Source of the DNA: Saprospiraceae bacterium | GTDB lineage: Bacteria > Bacteroidota > Bacteroidia > Chitinophagales > Saprospiraceae | NCBI GenBank assembly: GCA_020631405.1 | Contig: JAHDHH010000003.1 | Coordinates: 62,001-126,000, forward strand | DNA: 64,000 bases | Reading direction: 5' to 3' | In this document: piece by piece, positions 54,849 through 57,636 of the stretch | Position numbering within the stretch: the stretch's first letter is position 1 | Layout: every line of letters begins with the position of its first letter | Notes under the pieces: model-generated | What the model was told of the DNA's origin: nothing | What the model saw: only the letters and a program-made list of their open reading frames with translations | Database searches by the model: none | Made by a program: the position numbers and the translations under genes

Positions 54849-55619
54849 ATGAAATTGTATAAGCATTCCATCTGCATTTTATTACTTGCTACCCTTGCCA
54901 TTATGAGTTGTGAGGATAAAGAGACACCTGCAACCAGTGGTCTAGTAGACTTAGATTTTTATGCAGTATATGATGACCAGCCATTGGTCATGCTTGACTT
55001 CTATCCATATGCATTTGATGAGAATATCAATTTTGGTACTTCCGATTTTTATTTTTCAGACTGCTACTTATCGGACAACAATGGTAATACACAACAGCTA
55101 GTCGATATTGAACTTATTGATTTTACAAATCAGAATAAGGACTTAACTGGAGCATTAGCGCCAATATCTGTTTCTGACATAGCTATTGAGCCAGGCAAGT
55201 ATACCTCTTTGACCTTCTCTGTAGGAGTTAATGAGGCACTCAACGCAACTAGACCAGAAGAATATACACCAGACAATCCCCTCAGTCTTGCTGGTCATTA
55301 CTGGACAGCTTGGGATAGTTACATATTTGCAAAGTTTCAAGGTCAACTGACCAAGCAGGATTCGGCTGATGTTAGTTGGTTATTCCACACAGGCAAGGAC
55401 GATGTGTTTAGAACATTTACCTACCCGATAGACTTAGAAGTTGATGGAAATGAAAGCACGATTAGTTTGACTTTGGATCATAAACAATTGTTTGTGTTAG
55501 AATCAGACAGCTACATGGATATCAGAAGCAAACCTACAAACCACAATCCTCAAGATCTTGAACCACTCATTCAGATTACTGAGAATATGGAACATGCCAT
55601 AAGTATTACCATTGAATAA
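54849..55619 (+). CDS. MbnP-like copper-associated lipoprotein
   Basis: The 256-residue protein has a lipobox (LATLAIMSC) and a domain with LDFYAVYDDQPLVML at the start, GHYWTAWDSYIFAKFQG near the middle and a SWLFHTGKD segment. This order matches the MbnP-like family. MbnP proteins pair with di-heme MbnH peroxidases, which modify a tryptophan into a copper-binding kynurenine. The downstream gene is exactly such a peroxidase. W residues in the motif are candidates for the modified site. The family assignment is from pattern memory. Confidence 0.78.
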   Translation: MKLYKHSICILLLATLAIMSCEDKETPATSGLVDLDFYAVYDDQPLVMLDFYPYAFDENINFGTSDFYFSDCYLSDNNGNTQQLVDIELIDFTNQNKDLTGALAPISVSDIAIEPGKYTSLTFSVGVNEALNATRPEEYTPDNPLSLAGHYWTAWDSYIFAKFQGQLTKQDSADVSWLFHTGKDDVFRTFTYPIDLEVDGNESTISLTLDHKQLFVLESDSYMDIRSKPTNHNPQDLEPLIQITENMEHAISITIE

Positions 55620-56733
55620 TTCAACCCTCTATATTATCCTTTTTGGCGTATTCATCTTGACTTGCTATAGTTGTGAAGAAGAGACAGGTAATGATGAGAG
55701 CAATGATTTGATTTCATTGGAAGATATTGAATACAATCCTATAGCTTTTGAAGTAGACTCACCTCCAGGATATCCCCTATTGGTCAGTCCAGATGACAAT
55801 CCGCTTACAGAAGATGGAATCAACTTGGGGAGGCACCTGTTCTATGATCCTATACTTTCTGTAGATAGCACCATGAGTTGTGCTTCATGCCATGACTTGC
55901 AGTTGAGTTTTACCGATGCTAGTGCTACGAGTATAGGTGTTGATGGTCTGAGTGGGATGAGGAATAGTATGTCATTAGTCAATATTGGCTATAATTATAG
56001 AGGCTTGTTCTGGGACGGAAGAGTCCAGACGCTAGAAGAGCAAGCACTTCTCCCTATTGAAGATCCAATAGAACTTCACCATTCTTGGACCGACTTAGTG
56101 GATCAGCTGCGCAGGCATGAGGACTATCCAAGATTGTTCAGAAAGGCATTTGGGATTACAAATACTGAAGGTATTACGAAGGAACTAGCAGCGAAGGCTA
56201 TTGCTCAATTCGAAAGGATCTTAATTAGCGGAGGGAACTCTAAGTATAATAAAGTAAAGTATCTTAACACAGATGTATTTACTGATTCCGAATTGCATGG
56301 TGAAGACTTGTTCATTGATACAGGCGACTCTGATGTCATAGATGCTGAGTGTAGCCACTGTCATAATGGAGGTCTATTTATGGGTGATGACTTCTTCAAC
56401 AACGGTCTGGATTCGACTGCTGATTATACCAACTTATTGGACCTTGGCAGAGGAGGTGTGACTGGCTTCGATGTTGATAAAGGAAAATTCAAAGCACCAA
56501 CATTAAGAAATATAACTATCACTGCTCCTTACATGCATGATGGCAGATTCAATACTTTAGATGAAGTCATAGAACACTACAATAGTGGCGGTCACCCTGC
56601 ACCCAATGTTGACCAAAACATTAAGATGTTAAATTTATCCGACTATGACAAGCAAGCATTACTTGACTTCTTGTCCACCCTAACCGATACTACCTACAAG
56701 TATCCAGAACTAGTTTCTAATCCTCACAACTAG
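55612..56733 (+). CDS. Di-heme cytochrome c peroxidase (MbnH/MauG-like) lipoprotein
   Basis: The 373-residue protein starts at TTG 55612, overlapping the end of the MbnP-like gene by 8 bases; this reaches the lipoprotein Cys in LTCYSC. Two CxxCH heme sites are at 90-94 (CASCH) and 247-251 (CSHCH). Conserved motifs GLFWDGRVQTLEEQ and APYMHDGRFNTLDEVIEHYN fit the di-heme peroxidase superfamily. It oxidises its partner in the periplasm. The start and overlap suggest translational coupling with the MbnP-like gene. Confidence 0.92.
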   Translation: MNNSTLYIILFGVFILTCYSCEEETGNDESNDLISLEDIEYNPIAFEVDSPPGYPLLVSPDDNPLTEDGINLGRHLFYDPILSVDSTMSCASCHDLQLSFTDASATSIGVDGLSGMRNSMSLVNIGYNYRGLFWDGRVQTLEEQALLPIEDPIELHHSWTDLVDQLRRHEDYPRLFRKAFGITNTEGITKELAAKAIAQFERILISGGNSKYNKVKYLNTDVFTDSELHGEDLFIDTGDSDVIDAECSHCHNGGLFMGDDFFNNGLDSTADYTNLLDLGRGGVTGFDVDKGKFKAPTLRNITITAPYMHDGRFNTLDEVIEHYNSGGHPAPNVDQNIKMLNLSDYDKQALLDFLSTLTDTTYKYPELVSNPHN

Positions 56734-56785
56734 CGAGTAATACGTATTATGTTTTTTTATATGTTACAATGACTGTTTTTTGTCG

Positions 56786-56816
56786 TTGGCTACAGGCTAT
56801 TCCAGTCATATATTTG
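56786..56816 (+). promoter_or_regulatory. Bacteroidota-type promoter in a gene-free interval
   Basis: TTG at 56786-56788 and TATATTTG at 56809-56816 are spaced by 20 bases, as good as the promoters of rplU and exbB. No protein gene follows on this strand before the next terminators, which points to a non-coding transcript. Confidence 0.65.
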
Positions 56817-56892
56817 TATTGTAATTAATAAGAAAGCAAAAGAGCTTTTAAAAAACAAAACAGAGATAATACATTTAGATCTGTTTTATTCG

Positions 56893-56910
56893 GATATGTT
56901 CATGGGATTA
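56893..56910 (+). repeat. 18-bp direct repeat, copy 1
   Basis: GATATGTTCATGGGATTA lies immediately before the first terminator hairpin. The identical copy is 183 bases downstream. Confidence 0.9.
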
Positions 56911-56962
56911 CTTGTTAAAGGCTAGTAGCAATGGCCGCAAGCCTTTAACAAGAACTTTTTTT
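56911..56962 (+). terminator. Intrinsic terminator of candidate RNA unit 1
   Basis: CTTGTTAAAGGCT (56911-56923) pairs perfectly with AGCCTTTAACAAG (56940-56952), with a 16-base loop and a T7 run at 56956-56962. It is 178 bases beyond the peroxidase stop, too far to be its usual terminator. Confidence 0.8.
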
Positions 56963-57075
56963 CTTCTACCAAGAGACATGATACATTTCCTTAAACATGA
57001 GAGATTGAGTTTTTCTATATATAAGTTGGTTTTCTTTTGTGCATTTTCAGAAAAATGCAAACGAACATAATAGTT

Positions 57076-57093
57076 GATATGTTCATGGGATTA
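57076..57093 (+). repeat. 18-bp direct repeat, copy 2
   Basis: It is identical to 56893-56910 and again directly precedes a terminator hairpin. Confidence 0.9.
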
Positions 57094-57130
57094 AAAAAAA
57101 TGGCTGCAGAACGATGCAGCCATTTTTTTT
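57093..57130. terminator. Bidirectional intrinsic terminator
   Basis: A perfect 16-base stem (A8-TGGCTGCA with TGCAGCCA-T8, loop GAACGA) has A- and T-runs on both sides. It can stop plus-strand transcripts from the RNA region and minus-strand transcripts of the thioredoxin-like gene, whose stop codon it touches. Confidence 0.92.
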
Positions 57131-57636
57131 TATTCCCCACTTTCGCTACTCATCCACGTAGCGTACTCTTTTACAGCATTCTCCCCAAACAACATCATAT
57201 CTGTTACTCCTTTGCCACCATACTCTTTTGCTACTACCCTACCTCTTTGGTCCAAAATGACGAATGTTGGATATTGGGATACTTGGAAAACAAACCCTAA
57301 TCGCTTTCCCTCTTCAGACTCTCCGTTTAGCTTATAGTTTACAAAAGTAGAGTTGTAATACTCAGAGAGAGGTTTGTTCATGAAAACGCTTTCGTCCATT
57401 ATCTGACAAGGCAGACACCAATCAGTATAAAACTCTACAAAGGTGAGTTTACTGGAATCATTGGCCATTTCAAGGACGTTAGAAAGCTTATTATCTATGA
57501 TGAACTCTACAAGCGTATTGTCTGAGTATTGAATGCTCAATGGTGAATCTTCGACGACCACAGTCTCTTTGACCTTACAACCCAAGTGCAGAGCAAAACA
57601 CAGACATAGCATAGCAAACCCAATAACTCTATTCAT
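57130..57636 (-). CDS. Thioredoxin-fold lipoprotein
   Basis: The 168-residue protein has a lipobox (CFALHLGC) and a thioredoxin-like domain with FVEFYTDWCLPCQ (redox CxxC) and a cis-proline segment SQYPTFVIL. It probably acts as a periplasmic thiol reductase or disulfide exchange protein. It starts 3 bases after the stop of the upstream glycosyltransferase gene, so the two are co-transcribed. Confidence 0.88.
   Translation of the reverse strand: MNRVIGFAMLCLCFALHLGCKVKETVVVEDSPLSIQYSDNTLVEFIIDNKLSNVLEMANDSSKLTFVEFYTDWCLPCQIMDESVFMNKPLSEYYNSTFVNYKLNGESEEGKRLGFVFQVSQYPTFVILDQRGRVVAKEYGGKGVTDMMLFGENAVKEYATWMSSESGE

Follow-up and report, generated by a model that had tools for sequence, protein, structure and literature searches.

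The window analyzed here, a stretch of 64,000 nucleotides from a Saprospiraceae bacterium, probably harbors one small-RNA gene whose product is an antisense RNA with several seeds, directed in trans at the start codons of mRNAs. According to the mechanism that we propose, positions 56776 to 57132 would form a single gene in which one promoter gives rise to an untranslated RNA of ~310 nt, carrying two modules, each with a near-invariant core between hairpins, and one intrinsic terminator at the end. Each core would serve as an antisense seed and base-pair in trans with a target across its start codon; in reverse complement, the core reads AUGAAC within A/T-rich sequence. Pairing of the seed would block ribosome entry, and several modules would multiply the seeds per transcript. 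We infer that the RNA is expressed, that it represses, and that the window's copy acts on an mRNA in the same way as its relatives.

The repeated core and its surroundings in the window

The exact repetition of the 18-base core stated in the original prediction was confirmed: GATATGTTCATGGGATTA is a direct repeat, with copies at 56893-56910 and 57076-57093 and a start-to-start distance of 183 bases. Both copies lie in the interval 56734-57129, which has a di-haem cytochrome c peroxidase gene upstream on the same strand and, downstream, a thioredoxin-like gene in convergent orientation; among open reading frames of at least 50 aa, the longest one entering this gap between genes has 87 aa (57037-57300). 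The structured units proposed around the core were recovered as a hairpin at 56911-56952 (z -6.1) and a terminator stem at 57093-57130 (z -6.5 against dinucleotide shuffles), and the presumed 311-nt RNA as a whole folds with a z of -8.4 against shuffles. Moreover, the predicted promoter has the Bacteroidota form, TTG followed by 20 nt and TATATTTG at 56809-56816, and fits the motif preceding other arrays. Transcription is estimated to start near 56822. The parts of the putative gene and its neighbors are as follows.

55612..56733, + strand: upstream neighbor, di-haem cytochrome c peroxidase (CCP_MauG; Pfam PF03150, 1.1e-53)
56776..56816, + strand: predicted promoter of Bacteroidota type, with TTTTTTGTCGTTGG (56776-56789) and the -7 box TATATTTG (56809-56816), from the sequence and the motif before other arrays
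56832..56849, + strand: small 5' hairpin with AAAAGA loop (fold -5.2 kcal/mol, z -2.5)
56857..56887, + strand: 5' hairpin of module 1 (fold -9.1 kcal/mol, z -5.0); its sequence varies among congeners
56893..56910, + strand: copy 1 of the core (putative seed), GATATGTTCATGGGATTA, exact repeat, family-wide
56911..56952, + strand: 3' hairpin of module 1 (fold z -6.1), internal, not conserved as a terminator; the T-run at 56956-56962 is shorter in congeners
57040..57059, + strand: 5' hairpin of module 2 (from the fold of 57000-57132)
57063..57084, + strand: GAACATA/TATGTTC hairpin, able to mask the 5' half of core 2 in the window's genus (from the fold and the congener alignment)
57076..57093, + strand: copy 2 of the core (putative seed), GATATGTTCATGGGATTA, exact repeat
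57093..57132, + strand: terminator hairpin and U-tract, presumed 3' end (fold z -6.5; T-run at 73/84 last units)
57130..57636, - strand: downstream convergent neighbor, thioredoxin-like (Pfam PF00085, 5.2e-8)

The small 5' hairpin at 56832..56849 is almost invariant among four congeneric sequences, and AAAAGA/AAAG loops recur across the RNA family. Between the modules, GAGATTGAGTTTT (57001-57014) is kept in the genus, and similar stretches were seen in other genera.

Conservation of the core across Saprospiraceae

The conservation expected of the core in related genomes was found: with up to one mismatch, 167 of the 199 Saprospiraceae genomes contain it, covering 96 of 112 genera, against 6 matches in 5 genomes for the reversed control, and it was not found at this threshold in the other 32 genomes. 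An exact scan of named genomes returned at least 117 stretches; among the 80 matches listed, the labels were Saprospiraceae, Saprospirales or other Bacteroidetes, with one entry labeled just "bacterium". In a sample of 395 genomes across the phylum, the core was matched in 5 of the 6 Saprospiraceae members. Outside the family, 24 of 389 genomes had matches with two or three mismatches, near the level of the reversed control (14, by our own count), and no module-like hairpin was seen by eye at the five out-of-family loci examined. At one of these, from another Bacteroidota family, the 3-mismatch match lies antisense to the start of an apparent lipoprotein gene, showing the start-likeness of the core complement.

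The 160 loci collected gave 140 arrays with 281 units, 274 of them unique and with sufficient flanks. The consensus of the units extends to GG-ATATGTTCATGGGATTA-TAATTT and decays on both sides; since the units were gathered by a core search (up to one mismatch in 15 nt), conservation within the core is partly by construction, and that of the flanking GG and TAATTT is not. The core could also be read as a micro-peptide (ATG TTC ATG GGA TTA TAA), and the three bases after the core are indeed most often TAA (T 87%, A 88% and A 80%, position by position). This reading is very improbable, as TAA follows neither copy in the window and third codon positions are no more variable than the others, a pattern partly due to finding the units via the core.

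No Rfam family reached threshold in the window, and across eight related loci only a tRNA did. Sub-threshold Rfam matches other than FopS were set aside as A/T-rich hairpin noise, and no description of the array RNA was found in the literature searched. This looks like an RNA family that is absent from the databases searched and widespread in Saprospiraceae.

Viral contigs were also observed to carry the core. Among 11 with an exact 17-mer, five have the core followed by TA, mostly with a host-like hairpin by eye, and a contig from a 19-mer scan is the sixth with a host-like core. The core lies among tail genes in one of these contigs and before a terminase gene in another. In the 19-mer scan, 5 contigs matched, compared with 3 for a reversed control, numbers that alone have no significance.

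Two modules of one predicted transcript

The architecture of the arrays was evaluated in 106 arrays with 600 bases on each side, of which 84 contain two to six cores and 22 are single units. A strong T-run after the 3' hairpin marks the last unit in 73 of the 84 multi-core arrays, but follows first units in only 11 of 84 cases and middle units in 2 of 33 (single units, 16/22). Conversely, the Bacteroidota promoter motif lies upstream of first units (48/84) rather than later ones (15/117), with 10/22 for single units and 2.5% for shuffles. When 63 arrays were aligned on a related motif, they showed TTTTTGTCTTTGT-N~20-ATATTTGTATYGTGA; as this logo was anchored on the motif, only its remaining columns are independent. 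As for the first terminator of the original prediction, the 7-T run at 56956-56962 is only 4 to 5 T in the three congeners aligned, and all four sequences retain the T-run at the end. Because T-runs mark last units, promoters mark first units and the first T-run is unconserved in congeners, the two units of the window would be modules of one transcript and one gene. Thus the two RNAs originally proposed, each with its own terminator, did not hold: arrays behave like single units with one promoter in front and one terminator at the end, the first T-run is unconserved in the genus, and core 2 is half-paired there. What stands of the proposed duplicated small RNA with a conserved seed is a repeated module, supported by its structure, its conservation throughout the family and the target signature seen in relatives. 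Some separate transcripts may nevertheless exist, given that a few later units do have a promoter motif and that the window itself has a 7-T run after the first hairpin.

It is also conceivable, if only tentatively, that the transcript is cut into module-sized sRNAs which then act by base pairing. The hairpins between cores could guide such hypothetical processing, and the promoter motif at 15 of 117 later units fits module-sized products as well; such cutting and the antisense reading are compatible and could both hold. A cis-acting leader or tandem riboswitch of the downstream gene might likewise be suggested by the tandem arrangement of structured modules, with their conserved core and terminator. 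Gene orientation disfavors this, making it scarcely credible: a same-strand downstream gene was found in only 33 of 89 arrays, and in the window the downstream gene is convergent. These 89 arrays are those with both neighbors known and no overlapping open reading frame of 80 aa, which 22 of the 140 arrays had.

Structure of the modules and accessibility of the core

The region 3' of the core folds below shuffles, with a mean z of -4.65 and a z below -2 in 91% of 269 units, and the 3' hairpin scores 27.0 against 11.5 when shuffled, being better than shuffles in 252 of 263 units. For the 5' hairpin the signal is weaker, with 206 of 263 units scoring above shuffles compared with 160 of 263 in a control region. 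In an arm-swap test, the hairpins' own arms formed 7.74 of 8 pairs and swapped arms 3.27, but the hairpins had been chosen for good pairing and their own value is high by construction; the structure claim rests for this reason on the shuffle folds and the hairpin scores.

The flanks upstream of the core avoid complementarity to it (42 of 272 units have at least 5 nt of it, against ~89 in shuffles), and the core is slightly more accessible than with shuffled flanks (probability of being unpaired 0.443 versus 0.399; 84 of 120 sampled units). The cores of the window, which had been proposed to be single-stranded in both units, comply in part. Core 1 is free of pairing in a fold of module 1 by itself, whereas folding the entire RNA leaves it partly paired. 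In core 2, TATGTTC pairs with GAACATA (57063-57069) in the predicted fold, with the complementarity kept in all four congeneric sequences. This pairing of core 2 is an exception of the window's genus.

A target signature at the start of a secreted protein gene in relatives

In reverse complement, the core resembles a start region of Bacteroidota: scored as such, it ranks above 99.96% of 10573 internal ATG contexts, a rank that shuffled flanks attain in 3.3% of cases. A scan of 553 start regions from the window and the named loci yielded seven duplexes of -18 kcal/mol or below. Dinucleotide-shuffled cores gave a mean of 1.13 and none of 150 reached seven; with CAU kept fixed, 11 of 150 shuffles did, making this comparison marginal. 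Internal ATG windows and start regions were alike on average (-9.28 versus -9.01), and duplexes of -18 kcal/mol or below occurred in 3 of 1059 and 7 of 553, respectively.

One protein family stood out. Its members have ~830 aa, Big_9 and Cadherin_5 domains, and the secretion signal Por_Secre_tail, which in one of the two members examined fell just short of the Pfam cut-off. It was first noticed in the scan of 553 start regions, from which one open reading frame antisense to an sRNA unit was dropped. The start region is present in 28 of the 30 best homologue matches, often as AAATCCACGAACC-ATG-AAT-GTA, and within the sequence examined the array lies downstream of the Big_9 protein gene in 14 of the 30 loci. 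In core-bearing genomes, duplexes of -15 kcal/mol or below were obtained for 55 of 74 homologues with at least 34% identity, and for 4 of 28 more distant ones. None of six homologues in core-less genomes reached -15 kcal/mol, though these are too distant to act as a control.

For 103 scored homologues, distant ones and three non-pairing congeners included and five discovery or related loci left out, the mean best duplex was -14.5 kcal/mol, against -11.1 for 300 CAU-fixed shuffled cores, none of which reached it; 54 of the 103 attained -15 kcal/mol (shuffles, 9.6 on average and 43 at most). A narrower test of 62 homologues, with the same five loci and the three congeners left out, gave -16.1 versus -11.0 for shuffles (0/300). 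Two homologue loci lacked a usable start. In these duplex tests, each homologue's best early in-frame ATG was used, equally for real and shuffled cores, and the homologues share descent, so that their counts are not independent events.

The third codon was counted in 61 non-redundant homologues with at least 34% identity, with starts chosen independently of energy. Here, Val is GTA in 29 of 29 cases, Ile is ATA in 9 of 9 and Leu is xTA in 5 of 5; in the Big_9 genes as a whole, GTA makes up 543 of 2009 Val codons (27%) and ATA 184 of 1430 Ile codons (13%). Moreover, AATCC lies upstream of the start in 42 of the 61 homologues, compared with 1 of 28 homologues below 34% identity and 16 of 554 background start regions. 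These patterns indicate that, in relatives, the start region of the Big_9 protein is constrained at the RNA level to match the core. No other evidence speaks as strongly for base pairing as this seed-matching constraint on synonymous and untranslated bases. In some species the predicted duplex has two parts, of ~10+10 bp, around a 6-nt bulge in the mRNA. The targets prefer the wobble-forming AAT over AAC, mostly with GTA, suggesting that pairing strength may be tuned or that another constraint may act.

Several copies of the core per transcript, set between hairpins, would also suit a sponge in which the core binds an RNA-binding protein, for instance an RRM-1 protein, and titrates it. CsrB/RsmZ are protein-titrating RNAs of this kind, with a motif repeated in one structured RNA and short GGA loops; the array RNA likewise repeats its motif within one structured RNA but has a long linker core and a target-mRNA signature. 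RRM_1 genes were found in 19 of 24 relatives, among them the window's genome with one match, and Hfq in none of the 24. Even so, we consider the sponge unlikely, since it leaves the start-region signature unexplained, a near-invariant core of ~15-20 nt would be long for a protein site, and two core-bearing relatives had no RRM_1 match.

Candidate targets in the window's own genus

The search for core-complementary targets at start codons, suggested by the original prediction, pointed to the Big_9 family in relatives, but no pairing was found at the Big_9 homologue of the window's genus: the nearest homologues in the window's genome and two congeners (27-29% identity) gave -4.0, -7.9 and -7.4 kcal/mol. 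Exact CATGAAYRTATC matches in four congeneric genomes were the sRNA genes themselves or sites away from starts. A 12-bp match at the start of a glycerol-3-phosphate dehydrogenase gene (Pfam PF07479) in the window's genome reaches -18.5 kcal/mol, with ~0.2 such matches expected by a rough estimate; this start is a weak lead for a local target. Looser complements of the seed numbered 192 in this genome against 193 for the control, and among 30 loci examined most lay inside or off genes.

Other candidates were rejected. For SusC/TonB receptors, represented by 30 loci from 33 matches in the window's genome (5 over the family cut-off), the mean was -7.9 and the best value -12.8 kcal/mol, compared with -8.4 for 89 other start regions. 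Start regions of CCP_MauG genes (n=23) averaged -8.2, and those of the gene upstream of CCP_MauG (n=17, mostly MbnP-like by position) -7.7, against -9.05 for 554 others.

Relation to known small RNAs

The signals of an own promoter and an intrinsic terminator, as carried by trans-acting antisense sRNAs, are present in the sequence of the window, and conserved complementarity to an mRNA start region, the other mark of such RNAs, was found in relatives and not in the window's genus. Multicopy families such as LhrC, Qrr and OmrA/B consist of paralogous copies with common seeds, and the array RNA likewise has shared seed copies. By their general description, these families are set apart as separate transcripts with sequences unrelated to the array RNA. 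All three are named as multicopy sRNA families in the FopS account (PMC11697453).

According to that account, the FopS sRNAs of Bacteroides repress translation of SusC by pairing with its start region, and are separate RNAs with the seed in a single-stranded 5' part (PMC11697453). The array RNA resembles FopS and GibS (Rfam RF04319, RF04182; PMC11697453) in its occurrence in Bacteroidota, in several copies per genome, and in the order of seed and terminator hairpin, as well as in its predicted pairing over start regions, which in FopS are those of surface-transporter mRNAs (PMC11697453). A further trait of FopS is binding by the RRM-1 protein RbpB; the window's genome has its one RRM_1 match as a candidate counterpart. 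The FopS consensus shares UUCAUGG-x-AUUA with the array core (11 of 12 positions, by our count) and little outside it. Nevertheless, the array RNA scores 21.1 bits with the FopS model (RF04319), against a Rfam gathering threshold of 56 bits, and the model had no match over the cut-off in the window or the window's genome. Moreover, in contrast to FopS as described there, the array RNA would have several seeds inside one transcript (with an estimated start), after hairpins and sharing one terminator, and SusC targets are not supported for it, the Big_9 secreted protein taking their place. Given the sub-threshold Rfam score, the several internal seeds and the different supported target, we file the array RNA as FopS-like and not as a member of FopS, that is, as a putative new variant of trans-acting antisense sRNA that would work like FopS.

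In a broader form, to which we incline with more reserve than to the single gene in the window, these would be multivalent antisense RNAs spread through the family, with 2 to 6 seed modules, co-evolving with the start of an often-adjacent secreted surface protein, in some cases through two-part duplexes that loop out six mRNA bases, as an Hfq-free translational switch with FopS-like logic. Saprospiraceae, among which Hfq was not found in 24 relatives searched, would thereby gain an sRNA family with a testable target. Antisense pairing at start codons as a control of surface proteins, which gut Bacteroides have been shown to use, is suggested also for a distant branch of the phylum, and the reason for having several seeds in a single RNA becomes a question.

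With regard to genomic context, an MbnP-like gene (PF20243) followed by the di-haem CCP_MauG gene lies directly upstream of the array in the window (54849-56733). A CxxCH-bearing gene is the upstream neighbor in 27 of 110 arrays, with neighbors assigned by BLAST cluster and motif, and by Pfam for the window's gene only. A link of the array to copper or haem physiology is possible.
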